This document shows positions 14,279-22,454 of a DNA stretch of 36,663 bases, piece after piece (position 1 is the stretch's first letter; each line of letters begins with the position of its first letter). The stretch comes from Clostridia bacterium (lineage in GTDB: Bacteria > Bacillota > Clostridia > Christensenellales > Aristaeellaceae). The stretch spans positions 1-36,663 of the forward strand of contig JAFXZO010000102.1 in assembly GCA_017541205.1 (NCBI GenBank), given 5' to 3'. Both the position numbers and the translations under genes were made by a program. The notes below the pieces were generated by a model. That model was not told the origin of the DNA. It made no database searches and saw only the letters and a program-made list of their open reading frames with translations.

Positions 14279-17200
14279 ATGAAACGAAGAATAGCCCTGT
14301 TCATGACGCTGCTGGTGCTCATCGCAATAGCGCCAAGCGCCATGGCCATCTTTGACCCGTCGGGCACCCCGTACGATCACCAGCACAGCTGGGAGCTGCT
14401 GAATATCGACTATACGGGCTGCACCTCGCCCGCTTACTATGTGTATGCTTGCAGCCTTTGCGGCCAGCAGAAGGTGGAGGAAAAGGCCGGCCCCGGGCAT
14501 GATTACAAGCTGACCTTCACCCAGCCCGCCACCTGCACCGACAGCGGGTACGCAAGCTATACCTGCTCCCGCTGCGGCGACGTTACGCGCGAGGTGCTGC
14601 CTGCCCTGGGCCATGACTGGGGCGACTGGCAGACCGACGAACCCGCCACCTGCAACCAGAACGGCACCGAAAAGCGCGTGTGCAGGCGCTGCGGCGAAAC
14701 CGTATACCGCTCCGTCTCCGGCGGCGAGCATGAATGGGGCGATTGGAAGGTTGAAATCCCCGGCGATTGCGTCACCATCGAGCTGCGTTACCGCAAGTGC
14801 AAACGCTGCGGCGAAACCAAATACCAAAACTGGGGCTACGGCGACCATAAATGGGGCGATTGGGTCGTGTTCCAGTCCCCCGACTGCACCCATACCGGCA
14901 TCATGCGGCAGTATTGCCTGCTCGATTCCACCCACATGAACGAAGCCGAGATCCCCGTGGACCCCGATGCCCACGATTGGGGCGAATGGGAAGTGGAGAT
15001 CCCCGCGACGGAAACCAGCGTGGGCTATGAAAGGCGCGTGTGCAAAATCAACCCCGAGCATGTCGAGCGGCGCGAGCTGGCCTATGTCGGCCCGACCCTC
15101 GCGCCTTTCATTCCCGAACCGGACCTCCTGATAACGGGAAACTATTCCGGCGGCCCCTTCCAGGAGGGCGATACCTTCTCCGTTGATTTGACCATATACA
15201 ACCTGGGCAACGTGCCCCTGCAGCTGGATTCCTTTGAAGCCAGCGACCGCGATCACTCCGGCGATCCCCTCAAGGACCTGCCCAAGGAGCTGGAGGCCAA
15301 CAGCTCCTTGACTGTCACCGTGACCGTCACCGTCACGGCGGACGATATCGCCGCCGCTGTCCCCGATCCCGAAACGGGTCTGTTCTCCATGGAACGTTTC
15401 TGGATCGTGCACTACAACTATATCGACGACACGGCCATCCAGAGCATAAGTGATTCCTGGCTGATCGCGCCTTATCTCATCATCCCGGACAACACGAAAG
15501 GCGGCGGCCTGAACGCCGCCCTGCGCATGACCGTTTCCGCGCCGGACCCCAACAACGCGTTCTATCTTAAGGACGACGTCGTCACCTTCGATGTTACCCT
15601 GACCAATGTGGGCAGCGTGGATTTGACGGACTGCCAGGTCCTCGTCCAGGACGGCGACGGGAACACCTATACGCTGGATTACGGCGCGCTCTCTCCCAGT
15701 GAATCCAAAACGATTGCCTGGTCCGTCGCAATCGGCGATGTTCACGTCGGCATGGGGCGCGACCTGATCGAATTCCGCGGCCATGGCTGGGTGCCCACGG
15801 AGGTCCTGAACGGGGACGCCGCCGTTTCCGGCCATACGGATGGCCTGGTCACCGCCGAGCCCCTCGAACGCGATCTCAAGGTCATGGAAGCCCCGCCTTC
15901 CCCGGAGGATTACGCCCTGTTCCTGGAGGTAACGCCGCTGACCGCGCAGGCGGCGTATAACCTGGACGATCCCTTCAATTACGAAGCCAAGGTCATCAAT
16001 ACTTCGTCCGATACGCTGTACGACGTGGTCATCAACATGACCTTTGACAGCGTGGGCGAGGAGAGCCACTATATCAGCGATCTCGCCCCGAGCGAAAGCG
16101 CGTCCTACGTCTTTTACAATCATGTCATCCAGGAAGATTTGGTATACGCCGCGGAGCATGGCGGCCAGGTCGGCCTGCATTGGGTCGCGGTCGGCCGCAG
16201 CGACGCGGGCGAACAGGTATTCAGCAACGAGTGCGTCGACTACATCGCCATCGATCCGTCCATAGAAGAGCAAAAGCCGGAAATCACGATCACCAGCATC
16301 ACCGAAGGCTCCGGCGCGGGCAAGCAGGTGGGCGATTACGTGTCTGTGCATCTGACCGTGGAAAACACCGGCAACACGAAGTGGAAATTCACGGGCGTAT
16401 GGATCGACGGCACGGGAGACGCTCATTACGATTTCAGCGACGAAGACAATTACACGTACAAAGAATTTGAGCCCGGCGAAAGCTTCGGCTTCGATATCGG
16501 CATCGAGATCCGCGATACGGACGCCGCGTCGGACGTGAAGGCTGTGATCCGTGATTTCACGGCGTACGCGGACTACGGGGAAATCGGTTCCAACACGGTC
16601 TCCTGCAATATCCCGCTGGACGATATTCCCATCCCGCCGCCCGTGGTCGCGCCCGGCGCGCCGGACCTTGTGCTGAACGTCGTCTGCCCGGACGCCGAGC
16701 CCTTCTTCTTTGACGGCGAGGGCAAGACCGGCGACGTCCACTACCAGGCCGTGGTCTGCAACGTCGGCGACGCGCCCTGCTATGTGACCGGCATCCGGAT
16801 CACCACCGCGGCCGGCGCCCGCACCGAGCCCGTGGGCCCCTTCCTCCTCTATCCCGCCGAAGCCACGCCCGATCTGCCGCTCACCAACGATTTCAGCGAA
16901 ACCGAAATCGATACGGACGGCAGGCTGCACATCACCTTCGCGGCGGAAGGCGAAGAGGACGGAAAAGCCTATGAATCGGGCCCCGTGGAGCTTTCGCACG
17001 AAGTATCCCAGGATCCGCCCCCGTGGATCCCGCCCACGGAAACCCAGCTGATCGTGGAAAAGCACGTGGTCAGCACGGAAACCACGTCCGAAGGCTATCT
17101 AAAGGACGACGTGGTGGATTACGAAATCTGGGTGTACAATGATTCCGATATCATCATCCCCTCCATTGATCTGGAAGACCCGCTCTTCGGCGGCACGGTG

Positions 17201-18994
17201 GGGACGATCTCGAACCTGGCTGCCCATGGCTGGTCCTGCATTACCTGCTCCTACACCGTGACCCAGACGGATGTGGACAATAAAAAGATCGAAAACACCG
17301 CCACCGCCCGCTGGACCGATCCCGAAACCGGCGTGGACAAGAGCGAAAGCAGCAACACCGTGATCGTGTTCACCACCGAGCCGAAGGAGGCCGGCGTATG
17401 GATCGATATCACGTTTGAGAAGGAGCCCGCCAACGGCAGCTTCTACGTCGAAGGAGAAACCTTCCCCATCCGTGTGGACTGGAAGAACACCTCCAAGGAA
17501 ATGCTGTATCATGTTTACGCGTACGATGCGATGGCCGATTGGATGGGCTACGGTCTCCTGGTGGACGATGGGACCCTGGCGCCCGATGAAGCCGGAACCT
17601 TCACCTTCGATTATGTGGTGGACGATATTGATGTAGATATTTTCAATGCGGTATACGATGATGCGTCGATCTGGGGCTATGATCAGTACGACGTCATTTA
17701 CATTGCATACGACATGGAAACCCGTCCCGCCGACAGGCCTGTGCCTGCTCCCGATACCAAAACCCCCGGCCTGAAGGTGGAGAAGAAGGAGACCAGCACG
17801 CCGGCCGACGGACGCGCCTACTACATCGAAGGCGAAACCATCACCTATGAAATCACCGTCACCAACACCGGCAACGTGGATCTTTCCAACGTGACCGTGG
17901 CCGATTCCCTCAGCGATACCTTCATGGGCGCGTTCGCCACCATCCCCATGCTGCATCCCAACGAAGCGCGCAAGTATCCGTACAACTACAAGGTCACCCA
18001 GCCGGATGTGGACGCCAAGAAGGTCGTCAACTACGCCATCGGCTATTACAGCTATGACACGCTGCTTGACGTGCCCGTGTTCTCCGAGCCCGTCGAAAGC
18101 CCCACCGGCCCCCAGAAGGGCCCGACCCCGACGCATCATGATCCCGACGGGCACATCGATACGCCCATCGTCAAGAGCGGCAAGGACGACGCCTGCGTGA
18201 TGACGCTGGTCGCCAGGGGCGACGGCACCGCCGAATATGAGCTGCACCTGTGCGCCAAGCACGCCGCCATCTACGATAAGGCGCAGTCCCTTGGCAGCGC
18301 CGCCGCCTGGCAGCAGGCCGCCAACGAATGGAAAAACGCGCTGGAGGAAATCTATCAGCAGATCCTGCGCGCTTCCGCCGGCAGCGCCCGCACCGCCGTC
18401 ATGGAGGAACGCGCCGTATTCTTCGCCTATGTGGACAGCATCAAGGCCGTCATGAACCAGCAGAACCCGCGCAGCGCCGTCCTCGCGGAGCAGACCGCCG
18501 CGGAAATGCTGATGCGCCAGTGTGCGGAGCTGTGCTACGTCGTCCATTACGCGCCTGAGGATCGGCCCGACAGCCTCTTCACCGGCAATTACAGGATCAC
18601 CTGCTTCTCCGGCAGCTCGCCCAAGTGCGCCGAGTCCGAAGCGAAGCATGGGAGCGATCTTACGATCCGCCGGTTCCTCTGCGCGGACCATGCGAAGATC
18701 GACGCCGGCGCTCTCGCCCTCGTTCGCCAGGCGCGCACCCGCGCCTCTGCCGCCGAAGCGTTCAAGCGCGCGCGCCGCAGCTGGCAGGCTGAGCTGAACA
18801 ATCTGGTCAGCGCTCAATATTCCGCCGCGCCCAAGGAGAACCGCAAGCTGATCTCCTCCTGCCGCCAGCTCTTTGATTCGCTGCTCGAAAAGCGCGAAGC
18901 GCTGTATTCGTTCATCTATGCCGACAGGCCCGAGGTCGTCCAGGAAGTGCTCACCCGCACAGTTCTGGAAGACATCATCCGCCGCTGCAAGTAA
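14279..18994 (+). CDS. Large secreted multidomain protein with Cys-ribbon, CARDB/DUF11-like and duplicated C-terminal domains
   Basis: 1571 residues with a signal peptide (cleavage after AMA23). Residues 45-270 hold about five zinc-ribbon-like modules (Cys48/58/61 and repeats of YxCSRCG...HDWGDW), a pattern common in clostridial surface proteins. From about 275 to 1260 there are tandem beta-sandwich modules of CARDB/DUF11 style (DVTLTNVGSVDLTDC; VENTGNTKWKF; YEITVTNTGNVDLSNVTVADSL), ending with two DUF11-like domains (about 923-1020 and 1164-1260). The last 265 residues are two diverged copies of a helical domain (about 1307-1435 and 1441-1571) sharing an LCAxHAxI motif and paired cysteines. 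No LPxTG, SLH or C-terminal membrane helix is seen, so retention on the cell is unexplained. GGAGGAGGG lies 9 bases upstream. An adhesin or extracellular scaffold role is inference. Confidence 0.85.
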   Translation: MKRRIALFMTLLVLIAIAPSAMAIFDPSGTPYDHQHSWELLNIDYTGCTSPAYYVYACSLCGQQKVEEKAGPGHDYKLTFTQPATCTDSGYASYTCSRCGDVTREVLPALGHDWGDWQTDEPATCNQNGTEKRVCRRCGETVYRSVSGGEHEWGDWKVEIPGDCVTIELRYRKCKRCGETKYQNWGYGDHKWGDWVVFQSPDCTHTGIMRQYCLLDSTHMNEAEIPVDPDAHDWGEWEVEIPATETSVGYERRVCKINPEHVERRELAYVGPTLAPFIPEPDLLITGNYSGGPFQEGDTFSVDLTIYNLGNVPLQLDSFEASDRDHSGDPLKDLPKELEANSSLTVTVTVTVTADDIAAAVPDPETGLFSMERFWIVHYNYIDDTAIQSISDSWLIAPYLIIPDNTKGGGLNAALRMTVSAPDPNNAFYLKDDVVTFDVTLTNVGSVDLTDCQVLVQDGDGNTYTLDYGALSPSESKTIAWSVAIGDVHVGMGRDLIEFRGHGWVPTEVLNGDAAVSGHTDGLVTAEPLERDLKVMEAPPSPEDYALFLEVTPLTAQAAYNLDDPFNYEAKVINTSSDTLYDVVINMTFDSVGEESHYISDLAPSESASYVFYNHVIQEDLVYAAEHGGQVGLHWVAVGRSDAGEQVFSNECVDYIAIDPSIEEQKPEITITSITEGSGAGKQVGDYVSVHLTVENTGNTKWKFTGVWIDGTGDAHYDFSDEDNYTYKEFEPGESFGFDIGIEIRDTDAASDVKAVIRDFTAYADYGEIGSNTVSCNIPLDDIPIPPPVVAPGAPDLVLNVVCPDAEPFFFDGEGKTGDVHYQAVVCNVGDAPCYVTGIRITTAAGARTEPVGPFLLYPAEATPDLPLTNDFSETEIDTDGRLHITFAAEGEEDGKAYESGPVELSHEVSQDPPPWIPPTETQLIVEKHVVSTETTSEGYLKDDVVDYEIWVYNDSDIIIPSIDLEDPLFGGTVGTISNLAAHGWSCITCSYTVTQTDVDNKKIENTATARWTDPETGVDKSESSNTVIVFTTEPKEAGVWIDITFEKEPANGSFYVEGETFPIRVDWKNTSKEMLYHVYAYDAMADWMGYGLLVDDGTLAPDEAGTFTFDYVVDDIDVDIFNAVYDDASIWGYDQYDVIYIAYDMETRPADRPVPAPDTKTPGLKVEKKETSTPADGRAYYIEGETITYEITVTNTGNVDLSNVTVADSLSDTFMGAFATIPMLHPNEARKYPYNYKVTQPDVDAKKVVNYAIGYYSYDTLLDVPVFSEPVESPTGPQKGPTPTHHDPDGHIDTPIVKSGKDDACVMTLVARGDGTAEYELHLCAKHAAIYDKAQSLGSAAAWQQAANEWKNALEEIYQQILRASAGSARTAVMEERAVFFAYVDSIKAVMNQQNPRSAVLAEQTAAEMLMRQCAELCYVVHYAPEDRPDSLFTGNYRITCFSGSSPKCAESEAKHGSDLTIRRFLCADHAKIDAGALALVRQARTRASAAEAFKRARRSWQAELNNLVSAQYSAAPKENRKLISSCRQLFDSLLEKREALYSFIYADRPEVVQEVLTRTVLEDIIRRCK

Positions 18995-19065: not shown

Positions 19066-19094
19066 TTGACAATTCGCTTTTCCGCGCATATAAT
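19066..19094 (+). promoter_or_regulatory. Consensus promoter for the FMN-riboswitch operon
   Basis: -35 TTGACA (19066-19071), 17-base spacer and -10 TATAAT (19089-19094) are all exact consensus. Transcription would start near 19101, just ahead of the aptamer. Confidence 0.9.
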
Positions 19095-19116
19095 AAGCAT
19101 GAATTGAACAGCAAGC

Positions 19117-19225
19117 AATCTTCAGGGCAGGGTGCAAGTCCCTACCGGCGGTACAGCCCGCGAGCCGAAAGGCTGATCCGGTCAGATTCCGGAGCCGACA
19201 GTATAGTCTGGATGGAAGAAGAATT
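19117..19225 (+). promoter_or_regulatory. FMN riboswitch (RFN element) aptamer
   Basis: The sequence contains the conserved RFN blocks in order: ATCTTCAGGGCAGGGTG, CCCTACCGGCGGT, AGCCCGCGAGC, GATCCGGTCAGATTCCGG, AGCCGACAGT and AGTCTGGATGGAAGAAGA. The first and last blocks close helix P1 (ATCTTC with GAAGAAT, one bulge). These are near-identical to the RFN consensus found before rib genes, so FMN binding can be assumed with confidence. The aptamer lies between a consensus promoter and an SD-sequestering hairpin, and the operon downstream encodes an ABC transporter instead of riboflavin biosynthesis genes. Confidence 0.96.
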
Positions 19226-19248
19226 TGCGATTTTCGTATGTCCTTCAT

Positions 19249-19272
19249 CCTCCTGAAGATCGTTTCAGGAGG
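19249..19272 (+). promoter_or_regulatory. Expression platform: hairpin sequestering the Shine-Dalgarno
   Basis: CCTCCTGAA (19249-19257) pairs perfectly with TTCAGGAGG (19264-19272), which contains the whole AGGAGG ribosome binding site of the first permease gene. GGATGGAAG at the 3' edge of the aptamer (19210-19218) can pair with CTTCATCC (19243-19250) as a competing anti-sequestor. Formation of the hairpin on FMN binding would block translation. TATTCTTTT follows, so a weak terminator contribution is also possible. Confidence 0.8.
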
Positions 19273-19279
19273 TATTCTT

Positions 19280-20179
19280 TTGTCTTTGTCTTTCCATGCG
19301 GGAACACGCGGGAAAAAAGGCGCGTTCCAGGCGGCCAAGCCCTATCTGTTCCTGCTGCCGATGCTCGTTTTCGCGGCCGGGTTCGTGTATTACCCGTTTT
19401 TGAAAACCTGCCTGCAAAGCGTGAGCATCGTCAACTTCCGCGGAGAGATTACGGGCTTCGCGGGCTTTGACAATTACCTTTACCTTTTCGGCCGAAGGCG
19501 GGAATTTGGCATCGCGCTTGAGAACACGTTCAAGCTGACGCTGATCAACGTGCCCGTTACGGTCGTCCTCACGCTGCTGCTTGGATACATTTGCTGCCGG
19601 CCGCACCCCTTCCACCGCGCGTATGAAACCATGTTCGCCCTGCCGATGGTGGTCAGCATGGCGGCGATCTCGCTGATCTTCAAGGTGCTGTTCAATCCGT
19701 CCGTGGGCTTCGTCAATTACGCGCTGGGCATCCAATCCGGCTGGTATGAGGACCGGCACACCGCGATGGGCGGCATTCTGATGCTGACGGTGTGGATGGG
19801 CGTCGGGTTCAATTTTCTCTTGTTCCTCTCCGCGTTCCGCGCGGTGCCCAAGGACGCGCTCGGCTGCGCGAAGCTGGATGGCGCCGGGCCCCTTCGGATC
19901 CTGCTTAAGATCCAGCTGCCGCTCATCTCCCCCACCATTCTCTACGTGGTCTGCACCAACCTGATCCTGGCCATGATGACCAGCGGCCCGATCCTGATCC
20001 TGACCCAGGGCGGCCCTTCGCGCTCCACCATGACGCTCATCTTTTTCATGTATACGTCCGGCTATAACTCCTCCAATTACAGCCTGGCCGCGTGCGTGAG
20101 CGTCGTCACCTTCCTGCTCACGTTCCTGTTTACCTTTCTCCTGTTCACGATGGAAAAAAGGAAGGTGCATTATCAATGA
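19280..20179 (+). CDS. ABC transporter permease, CUT1/UgpA (MalF) type, under FMN riboswitch
   Basis: A membrane permease of 299 residues with about six helices. The EAA-type loop that contacts the ATPase is DALGCAKLDGAGPLRILLKIQLPLISP. FVYYPFLKTCLQSVSIVNF and FVGFDNY-like GFAGFDNYLYLF near the N-terminus and LILTQGGPSRSTMTLIFFMY near the C-terminus are standard for sugar/glycerol-3-phosphate permeases. I place the start at the TTG at 19280, seven bases after AGGAGG; the ATG at 19238 lies inside the riboswitch platform and has no binding site. Its stop overlaps the next gene (ATGA). Translation should be repressed by FMN, so the imported compound is predicted to be flavin-related. Confidence 0.88.
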   Translation: MSLSFHAGTRGKKGAFQAAKPYLFLLPMLVFAAGFVYYPFLKTCLQSVSIVNFRGEITGFAGFDNYLYLFGRRREFGIALENTFKLTLINVPVTVVLTLLLGYICCRPHPFHRAYETMFALPMVVSMAAISLIFKVLFNPSVGFVNYALGIQSGWYEDRHTAMGGILMLTVWMGVGFNFLLFLSAFRAVPKDALGCAKLDGAGPLRILLKIQLPLISPTILYVVCTNLILAMMTSGPILILTQGGPSRSTMTLIFFMYTSGYNSSNYSLAACVSVVTFLLTFLFTFLLFTMEKRKVHYQ

Positions 20180-21012
20180 GCAAAGCCTTCCTCAAAAAGG
20201 TGTGGGAAACGGCGCTGGGCGTGCTGTGCCTGCTGCTTGGGTGCGTGCTCCTGTTCCCGCTGTTTTACGGGCTCATGGGCGCGTTCAAGACGCCCGCGGA
20301 ATTTATCGCCTACCCGCCCACGGTGCTGCCCCAAAGCTTTGCCAACCTGCAAAACTTTGAAGCCGTATTTACGCAGGCGCCCATGCTCCGCTATTTCTGG
20401 AATACGCTGCTCGTCTCCACGCTGAGCGCGGGGGTGCGTATGATGCTTGCGCTGCTGGCCGCGTATGCGTTCGCGTTCTATGAATTCAAGGGCAAGCGCT
20501 TCCTGTTCTTCCTGATCCTGTCCACCATGATGCTGCCCGCGGATACCCTGGTCATCACCAATTACCAGACCGTTTCGCGCCTGGGGCTGTTGGACACGTA
20601 TCTTGGCATCGCCGTGGTTTCCTTTGTCGGGGCCAGCCAGATGTTCATGCTGCGCCAGCAGTTCATGGCCTCGCCCGCGCCCATCCGGGACGCCGCGCTG
20701 ATCGACGGCTGCGGGGACGTGCGCTTCATCGCCTTTATCCTGACGCCCATGAGTTCGTCCGTACTCGCGACGCTGTTCCTGCAGTCCTTCATCACCCAAT
20801 GGAACGCCTACCTGTGGCCCCTGCTTGTGACCAACAAAACTGAAATGCGCACCGTGCAGATCGGCATCACGATGCTGACCACCCTGGAGGGCACGAATTA
20901 CGAAACCGTGCTGGCCGGGGCCGCGGTGGTGGTGATCCCGGCGGCGCTCCTGTTCCTTGTCCTGCGAAAGAGCATCACCCGCACGGTCGGCGGCGGCGCG
21001 ATCGTGGGCTGA
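20176..21012 (+). CDS. ABC transporter permease, CUT1/UgpE (MalG) type
   Basis: A 278-residue second permease. FPLFYGLMGAFKTPAEF, FWNTLLVSTLSAGVRMMLALLAAYAFAFYEFKGK and LPADTLVITNYQTVSRLGLLDTYLGI follow the UgpE/MalG pattern; the EAA loop is DAALIDGCGDVRFIAFILTPMSSS and a typical QSFITQWNAYLWPLL follows. It pairs with the preceding permease to form the transport channel. Start and upstream stop share ATGA; GGAAGG lies 10 bases ahead. The ATPase subunit is not encoded here, so the system probably uses a shared MsmK/UgpC-type ATPase made elsewhere. Confidence 0.9.
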   Translation: MSKAFLKKVWETALGVLCLLLGCVLLFPLFYGLMGAFKTPAEFIAYPPTVLPQSFANLQNFEAVFTQAPMLRYFWNTLLVSTLSAGVRMMLALLAAYAFAFYEFKGKRFLFFLILSTMMLPADTLVITNYQTVSRLGLLDTYLGIAVVSFVGASQMFMLRQQFMASPAPIRDAALIDGCGDVRFIAFILTPMSSSVLATLFLQSFITQWNAYLWPLLVTNKTEMRTVQIGITMLTTLEGTNYETVLAGAAVVVIPAALLFLVLRKSITRTVGGGAIVG

Positions 21013-21067
21013 TTTCGTTCCCCGCGGCGAAAGCCGCCCGCATATTTTATCAAGGAGGTCCCCTTCC

Positions 21068-22360
21068 ATGAAAAAACGCTTTTCCTTCCTGATCGCTCTA
21101 ATGCTGCTCTGCGCTCTTTTTCCCGTTTCCCGCGCGGAAACCGTCAAGCTCACCTTCTGGCATTCCATGTCTGAGGGCGCGGGCACGCTGATCGACGGGT
21201 ACGTGAAGCAGTTCAACGAAACCGTCGGAAAGAAGCAGGGCATCGAGGTGGAGGCCGTATTCCAGGGCCAGTACGCGGAAGCGGTATCCAAAATGAAAAA
21301 TATCCTTTTCGGCAAGCAGTACGACGTGCTGCCCGACGTGATGCAATTGGACGCCACGGGCAAGGTACCCTATGCCGCGGCGGAAACCGCCTATCCCATC
21401 GGCGCGGCGCTCCAGGATCACCCGGACGCCGATCTGAGCGTGTTCCTTGCCCCGGCCATGGCGAATTGGCAGCTGGCCGGAGAGCAGCTTGGCCTGCCCT
21501 TCGCCACGTCCACCACCGTGCTGTATTACAACAAGACCGCCCTGGAGGCCGCCGGCTTTGACGCGCCGAAGACCCTGGACGATATCGGCGCGCTTTCTTC
21601 CCTCGCCGCGGACGGCGTCGCCGTGTACGCCTCCATTCCCAATACCCCCCTGCTCGCCAATTGGCTCGGCCAGCTCGGAAGCGATCTGGTGAACCGCCAC
21701 AACGGCACCGAGGGCAGCGCGACCGAATTGGCCTGCGTGGAAAACGGCGCGCTGGCCTCGTTCCTGACCGCCTGGAAAAACCTGTACGCCACCGGCGCTT
21801 TGGTCAACCAGAACAGCTCCGGCGACGAGTTCGCCGCAGGCCGTCAGCTGCTGATGACCGAATCCACCTCAAAGGTCGCCTCCATCTTGAAAAAAATCGA
21901 CGGCCGGTTTGAGCTGGGCATCGCGCCGTATCCGCAGGTGAGCGCGGATTCCGCCGCCGGGGCCACCGTATCCGGCAGCTGCCTGGTGATGTTCGATCAT
22001 GGCGACGAAAGGAAAAACGCCGCCTGGACCTTCCTGCAATACCTGACCGGCGCCGAGATCCAGGCCGATTTCGCCGCCAAGACCGGGTATCTGCCCGCGA
22101 ATAAGGGCGCGGCGGAAAGCGAAGTCTGGCAGGCTTTGATCCGGGAATACCCGCAGTATCAGGTGGGGCTCTCCCAGCTCGCCGTCACCCCCGATACCAT
22201 GCGCTCCGTCACCGTGGGCCCCGCCGCCGATTTCTATTACGCCATCATCAACGATATTTCCGATATGCTGGATCAAAACCTTACAGCCGAGGAAACGGTG
22301 GAACTGATGGTCGGCGATCTGGGCGGCATGCTGGAGCAGTACGCGCTGGCAAATCCATAA
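21068..22360 (+). CDS. ABC transporter substrate-binding protein, UgpB-like (family 1)
   Basis: A 430-residue extracytoplasmic binding protein. The signal peptide ends near VSRAE; the mature protein opens with VKLTFWHSMSEGAGTLIDGYVKQFNE, the opening typical of UgpB (sn-glycerol-3-phosphate) binding proteins, followed by LGLPFATSTTVLYYNKTALEAAGFDAPKTLDDI and AAWTFLQYLTGAEIQADFAAKTGYLPANKGA, standard family 1 segments. The signal peptide has LLCA but not a proper lipobox (Gly/Ala/Ser should precede the Cys), which is odd for a Gram-positive binding protein. AAGGAGG precedes the start by 10 bases. It is the third gene of the FMN-riboswitch operon; the ligand is unknown, and a phosphorylated polyol such as ribityl phosphate or FMN would fit both the family and the switch. 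Confidence 0.88.
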   Translation: MKKRFSFLIALMLLCALFPVSRAETVKLTFWHSMSEGAGTLIDGYVKQFNETVGKKQGIEVEAVFQGQYAEAVSKMKNILFGKQYDVLPDVMQLDATGKVPYAAAETAYPIGAALQDHPDADLSVFLAPAMANWQLAGEQLGLPFATSTTVLYYNKTALEAAGFDAPKTLDDIGALSSLAADGVAVYASIPNTPLLANWLGQLGSDLVNRHNGTEGSATELACVENGALASFLTAWKNLYATGALVNQNSSGDEFAAGRQLLMTESTSKVASILKKIDGRFELGIAPYPQVSADSAAGATVSGSCLVMFDHGDERKNAAWTFLQYLTGAEIQADFAAKTGYLPANKGAAESEVWQALIREYPQYQVGLSQLAVTPDTMRSVTVGPAADFYYAIINDISDMLDQNLTAEETVELMVGDLGGMLEQYALANP

Positions 22361-22425: not shown

Positions 22426-22454
22426 TTGAACATCCTGACGATAGATGCTATAAT
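22426..22454 (+). promoter_or_regulatory. Promoter of the STAS gene pair
   Basis: -35 TTGAAC (22426-22431), 17-base spacer, -10 TATAAT (22449-22454), 25 bases before the start codon. Confidence 0.8.

Follow-up and report, generated by a model that had tools for sequence, protein, structure and literature searches.

Why does a sugar-type ATP-binding cassette (ABC) transporter stand behind a flavin mononucleotide (FMN) riboswitch, and what does it import? The question arises from a 36,663-nt stretch of DNA (hereafter the window, meaning the whole stretch that was analysed) from a Clostridia bacterium of the family Aristaeellaceae (assembly GCA_017541205.1, contig JAFXZO010000102.1), in which such a riboswitch is followed by genes for a UgpA-like permease, a UgpE-like permease and a UgpB-like binding protein, together referred to as AEB. 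An earlier, sequence-only reading of this DNA had proposed FMN, riboflavin or a ribityl precursor as the cargo of the system. Comparison across genomes supports this proposal, and the loss of riboflavin kinase together with conserved phosphate-binding residues would narrow it to FMN. We consider AEB to be the route by which a lineage apparently unable to synthesise riboflavin imports its flavin, with FMN as the main substrate, and assign this reading a probability of roughly 0.68. Because the riboswitch is conserved, the riboflavin transporter RibU is replaced and lumazine synthase is almost absent, we hold with considerably greater confidence that AEB is very probably a flavin importer of some kind.

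A canonical FMN riboswitch precedes a CUT1-type operon

Judged by its sequence, the RNA 5′ of AEB is a canonical FMN riboswitch. The RF00050 match scored 116 bits (E 1.3e-26) against a gathering cut-off of 66.2, which bears out the near-consensus RFN element described in the sequence-only reading, and it is the sole FMN riboswitch in the window (Table 1). No RF00050 match beyond this one was found in the source genome, a 3.0-Mb draft of 121 contigs that is 84.86% complete. As also read from the sequence, two CUT1-type permeases and a UgpB-like binding protein follow directly 3′ of the riboswitch (Pfam, NCBIfam). Two BPD_transp_1 permeases plus one SBP_bac_1/8 binding protein make up the composition of a CUT1 ABC importer; all three proteins are of the CUT1 class, not S components of the energy-coupling factor (ECF) type. 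Pfam places B in SBP_bac_8/SBP_bac_1, and its N-terminus resembles a signal peptide. The top NCBIfam models were UgpA, UgpE and UgpB, yet all scores fell far under the equivalog cut-offs (132.1 of 335, 133.6 of 297 and 95.7 of 411 bits, respectively). A plasmid protein search returned 539 records, all below 60% identity, and the five listed were UgpB-like or other ABC binding proteins. The notion of one overlapping operon holds for the two permease genes, which share an ATGA, but not for B, whose ATG at 21068 lies 55 nt past E.

Table 1 Features of the riboswitch–AEB locus (positions within the window).
Feature	Position	Strand	Evidence
FMN riboswitch aptamer (RFN element)	19114..19227	+	RF00050, 116 bits, full length
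Expression platform: 10-bp hairpin, then U-rich tract	19249..19281	+	Fold; arms 19249-19258 / 19263-19272
Permease A (UgpA-like CUT1), 299 aa, TTG start	19280..20179	+	PF00528 (BPD_transp_1), E 1.9e-13
Permease E (UgpE-like CUT1), 278 aa	20176..21012	+	PF00528 (BPD_transp_1), E 1.5e-9
Binding protein B (UgpB-like, predicted flavin-nucleotide binder), 430 aa	21068..22360	+	PF13416, E 9.8e-35

Inspection by eye suggested that A most likely starts at the TTG at 19280, 7 nt 3′ of an AGGAGG (19267-19272), with the ATG at 19238 falling within the leader. This Shine-Dalgarno sequence sits within the 3′ arm of the hairpin, so that the hairpin can serve as a terminator and/or as a Shine-Dalgarno sequestor. 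A script recovered the succession of aptamer, hairpin and U tract in 27/29 AEB leaders, as opposed to 3.1% of mononucleotide shuffles; one of these leaders (L107) was judged spurious, leaving 26/29, and two (L117 and L122) failed. By eye, both strands of the stem differ from genus to genus (CCUCC/GGAGG, CCCCC/GGGGG, CUCCGG/CCGGAG), and in several AEB loci the terminator lies apart from the ribosome-binding site. A candidate anti-terminator pairing, picked out by eye in the window alone, joins 19210-19218 to 19243-19250. The architecture of the AEB leader fits an OFF switch, the direction we presume for it. One genome, G008, carries two more FMN aptamers (L034, L035), each 12 nt from a contig end.

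The riboswitch–AEB pair is conserved across genera

Conservation was assessed in 29 genomes of the window's genus and in a sample of 300 genomes of the family, 120 of which were near-complete (at least 90% complete, at most 5% contaminated). The named relatives are Clostridia metagenome-assembled genomes, several of them labelled as coming from ruminant stomachs and one labelled Christensenellaceae. Within the genus, RF00050 was found in 22/29 genomes, upstream of AEB in nine—in one of which (G010) the operon is apparently split across two contigs—and upstream of ribU in 13. The identity of ribU is given by PF12822 in one member and by best profile matches to solved RibU structures (3p5n, E 1e-30).

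At the family level, a B-like protein was detected at E ≤ 1e-60 in 41/300 genomes. One of these, G057, was dropped as an AEB ortholog: its protein shows 30% identity, RibU is present and its 9 kb hold no RF00050 match. This left 40 AEB genomes in 10 genera. Since the family search scored only five candidates per genome, it may have overlooked some carriers of AEB; the genus search scored up to 60 and returned the same 15 AEB genomes. The other genera contribute 25 AEB genomes: in 20 the operon directly follows the riboswitch, three (all in genus g20) are without it and two are cut by a contig end. Altogether, 29 of the 40 AEB genomes, from nine genera, carry an FMN riboswitch directly upstream of the operon, nine do not and two have cut contigs. 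A separate scan of a named collection yielded 13 AEB loci, mostly on contigs already included above; the riboswitch was present at 11. A riboswitch ahead of CUT1 permeases, first noticed in a single piece of sequence, is a recurrent arrangement, with RibU as the alternative partner in sister genomes; we reject a one-off rearrangement on the strength of these 29 loci in nine genera.

In the tree of B, riboswitch-less copies appear at three places. The B copy of G164 (genus g7) is nested among those of the window's genus, a placement suggestive of transfer. Six AEB orthologs with 54-59% identity (L061-L066, in G013, G001, G007, G006, G012 and G005) lack both the riboswitch and RibU and stand behind ordinary-looking promoters, apparently representing unregulated flavin uptake or another mode of control.

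AEB takes the place of RibU in genomes without lumazine synthase

AEB and RibU never occurred together within the genus: 15/29 genomes had AEB, 13/29 RibU and one neither. Two weak S-component matches (G005, E 6.7e-5; G019, E 1.4e-4) were left uncounted. The genome of the window gave no RibU profile match, in line with the absence of ribU that the sequence-only reading had envisaged. Across the family, RibU was detected at E ≤ 1e-10 in 5/40 AEB genomes versus 241/260 others, and all 12 near-complete genomes without RibU had AEB.

Lumazine synthase, the sole riboflavin biosynthesis enzyme searched, was found in none of the 29 genus genomes and in 1/300 of the family, while the same search recovered it in 14/14 controls. 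The envisaged lack of riboflavin biosynthesis genes is borne out for this enzyme, and a combination of biosynthesis plus uptake is left unsupported, with lumazine synthase absent from 299/300 genomes.

Loss of riboflavin kinase and a conserved phosphate site point to FMN

Within the genus, a flavokinase domain (PF01687) occurred in 9/29 genomes. All nine were RibU genomes (9/13), and none of the 15 AEB genomes had the domain. In the family it was present in 10/40 AEB genomes versus 195/260 others (4/15 versus 86/105 among near-complete genomes), so 30 AEB genomes, 11 of them near-complete, lack it. The archaeal-type kinase that depends on cytidine triphosphate (PF01982) was likewise found in none of the 34 kinase-lacking genomes searched (30 AEB, 4 RibU). 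Flavin adenine dinucleotide (FAD) synthetase is retained in 28/29 genus genomes. In the genome of the window, RibF is a protein of 182 aa (G000:C40:91876-92424; L069:3877-4425) whose matches to the bifunctional RibF models are confined to their N-terminal part; it consists of the FAD-synthetase domain alone, and no flavokinase domain was found elsewhere in the genome. With no riboflavin made, no known kinase and the adenylylation of FMN kept, FMN would be needed from outside.

The RibU genomes of the genus that lack the kinase are G016, G022, G023 and G025 (L039, L041, L037 and L040). The RibU of Listeria reportedly takes up FMN and FAD as well as riboflavin (PMC9973259), and these four genomes could therefore import FMN through RibU. 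Six other loci, from sister genomes (L036 and L042, L043, L044, L045, L046), carry a stand-alone riboflavin kinase domain of ~126 aa 3′ of riboswitch-ribU; we read this domain as part of a split RibF, its kinase portion having moved into the transporter locus.

The binding protein offers a second line of evidence. In UgpB, the phosphate ligands are reported to be Tyr64, Ser143, Ser266 and Tyr342 (PMC12718374). They correspond to Y69, S148, S266 and Y341 of B and are invariant in 41/41 ortholog rows. Glu88, a glycerol contact of UgpB, is Ala in 41/41 rows, and no Trp of the B orthologs aligns with the clamp residues Trp188/Trp191, the stretch being gapped. The structural model of B (predicted local distance difference test, 79.3; predicted template modelling score, 0.82) has the UpG-binding protein and UgpB as structural neighbours; its best Foldseek match is 7c0v, a dinucleotide-binding CUT1 protein. 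Kinase loss and the conserved phosphate-binding residues together make FMN a likelier substrate of AEB than riboflavin.

Alternative substrates and counter-evidence

AEB might instead import riboflavin, or any flavin, with an unrecognised, non-homologous kinase making FMN inside the cell. This is unlikely, though it has precedent on its side: the named FMN-regulon transporters listed in Table 1 of a regulon survey are described there as riboflavin transporters (PMC4418817), and riboflavin uptake would be usable in the 10/40 AEB genomes with a flavokinase. Against it stand the failure to find either PF01687 or PF01982 in 30 AEB genomes, 11 of them near-complete, and the phosphate-binding quartet, which riboflavin does not need, yet B keeps. 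Import of FAD, or of both flavin nucleotides, would also be compatible with kinase loss, and the dinucleotide bound by the nearest solved relative in Foldseek indicates that this class of pocket can take a large ligand; FAD uptake alone, however, would make the FAD synthetase needless, yet nearly every genome of the genus has one (28/29), and we regard uptake of FAD, alone or with FMN, as improbable. Still harder to sustain is an ordinary glycerophosphate, glycerophosphodiester or sugar importer with an incidental riboswitch. The top NCBIfam models do name UgpA, UgpE and UgpB, 9/40 operons have no riboswitch and the phosphate quartet recurs in 7/19 other CUT1 binding proteins, but the riboswitch is kept at 29 loci in nine genera, RibU is replaced almost completely, Glu88 is Ala throughout and no Trp aligns at the clamp; we see very little room for this option. 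Least credible of all is that the aptamer is a lumichrome/lumiflavin variant of the FMN riboswitch acting as an ON switch, with the transporter handling flavin breakdown products. A lumichrome-type variant is reported upstream of an efflux protein in C. difficile (PMC11477304). AEB aptamers (n = 29), by contrast, differ from RibU aptamers (n = 13) at three fixed positions, all in the variable-length loop and none in the core—a comparison that did not extend to the variant's diagnostic bases—and the hairpin and U tract 3′ of the aptamer suit an OFF switch; moreover, the AEB operon encodes a binding protein and hence an importer.

Several observations weigh against a flavin importer used mainly for FMN. 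The genomes are drafts, many of them incomplete, and the Fisher p-values for AEB versus RibU (1.4e-26 in the family, 4.3e-14 in near-complete genomes) ignore kinship. Neither RibU nor AEB was detected in 19/260 genomes, none of them near-complete. Five genomes have both transporters: three belong to g20, in which AEB is without a riboswitch, and two (G164 and G265) combine riboswitch-AEB with RibU. Listeria without RibU is reported to take up riboflavin still, by an unknown route (PMC9973259), so that a lack of RibU is no proof of dependence on AEB. The riboswitch-less AEB operons fall in both the window's genus (six) and g20 (three). As 10/40 AEB genomes retain flavokinase, kinase loss is no strict consequence of AEB; nor is it peculiar to AEB, since 65/260 genomes without an AEB ortholog, including the four RibU genomes of the genus, also lack the kinase. 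Among 19 further CUT1 binding proteins from the family, 7 have the complete quartet, which makes it a mark of the phosphate-ester class, not of FMN. Finally, W199 is invariant in the B orthologs and lies six residues beyond the position aligned with the clamp, where the structural model is poor, so that the loss of the clamp hinges on the alignment.

A proposed route for FMN

Under the FMN-importer reading, B would catch FMN outside the membrane via its phosphate, and A and E would form the channel. As the sequence-only reading had stated, no ABC ATPase was found in the window (motif scan of open reading frames of at least 150 aa). The same kind of scan placed ATPase candidates near AEB in 3/40 loci, several kb off; two of them were tested and one (L027) was UgpC-like. 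In Bacillus, multitask ATPases of the MsmX type are reported to drive several sugar importers (PMC7658222), and a shared MsmX/UgpC-type ATPase encoded elsewhere may power A and E. Imported FMN would be used directly, rendering riboflavin kinase dispensable, and the single-domain FAD synthetase would make FAD from it. At high cellular FMN, the aptamer would close and the hairpin form, so that transcription ends early, the ribosome-binding site is masked and uptake ceases; the riboswitch would sense the very molecule that is imported.

In its full form—a CUT1 importer dedicated to FMN, derived from a UgpB-type phosphate-ester binder and, with a trimmed RibF, supporting life on ready-made FMN without riboflavin synthesis or riboflavin kinase in several genera of anaerobic gut-type bacteria—the proposal is one we favour, if with somewhat less assurance than the substrate itself.

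Relation to known flavin transporters

AEB would be of a known kind, the FMN-riboswitch-controlled flavin importer, here built from a CUT1 transporter. RibU, an ECF S component working with EcfA/A'/T, likewise serves flavin uptake under an FMN riboswitch where lumazine synthase is missing, and in sister genomes it stands in the regulatory position of AEB; in contrast to the CUT1 ABC importer AEB, to which it is unrelated, it is a membrane S component and has no soluble binding protein. Two other known systems are, like AEB, of the ABC type. The binding protein of RibXY is NMT1/THI5-like, and RfuABCD is of the BMP/CUT2 type and has an ATPase of its own. AEB, unlike RfuABCD, is of the CUT1 class and has no linked ATPase, and RibXY/RibXYZ belongs to another ABC subfamily than AEB. 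RibXY/RibXYZ of Chloroflexi and Actinobacteria is reported to be of the ABC type, to have a soluble binding protein and to stand behind an FMN riboswitch, features that AEB has too, and RfuABCD of spirochaetes is described as an ABC riboflavin importer with a homologue behind an FMN riboswitch in Spirochaeta smaragdinae (PMC4418817).

Among CUT1 systems, the glycerol-3-phosphate importer UgpB-AEC differs from AEB in having Glu88 and the clamp Trp residues—replaced in B and without an aligned Trp, respectively—and in the equivalog scores that AEB falls far short of; AEB, in turn, has an FMN riboswitch and no linked ATPase. The CUT1 dinucleotide (UpG)-binding protein of the PDB 7c0f series, to which the best Foldseek match belongs, shares ~23% identity with B. 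Its ligand is a dinucleotide, and we know of no FMN riboswitch associated with it. A U3G-binding protein is reported to have the same phosphate quartet as UgpB (PMC12718374).

A survey from 2015, covering 842 FMN riboswitches, lists no CUT1 system in its table of FMN-regulated non-biosynthesis genes (PMC4418817), and our literature search, thin on subscription papers, found no earlier report of an FMN-riboswitch CUT1 flavin importer. If correct, the FMN-importer reading would enlarge the set of vitamin B2 transporters by one class, show that an ABC importer of the sugar class was recruited to carry a cofactor, and explain how riboflavin kinase can be lost in bacteria. The reading would further suggest that communities of the rumen and gut share FMN as well as riboflavin, and would alter metabolic models that rate such genomes incapable of obtaining flavins.

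Genes surrounding AEB

A promoter-like sequence (TTGAAC-17-TATAAT, 22426-22454), spotted by eye, lies 3′ of AEB, and the genes behind it—a STAS protein and others—probably form a separate unit. At 14279-18994, the window encodes a protein of 1571 aa with DUF7507 repeats, probably a surface protein. Four close relatives carry a NiCo riboswitch within a few kb of AEB, on the other strand (L048:8822-8902, L049:7485-7550, L050:8826-8905 and L051:5877-5954).

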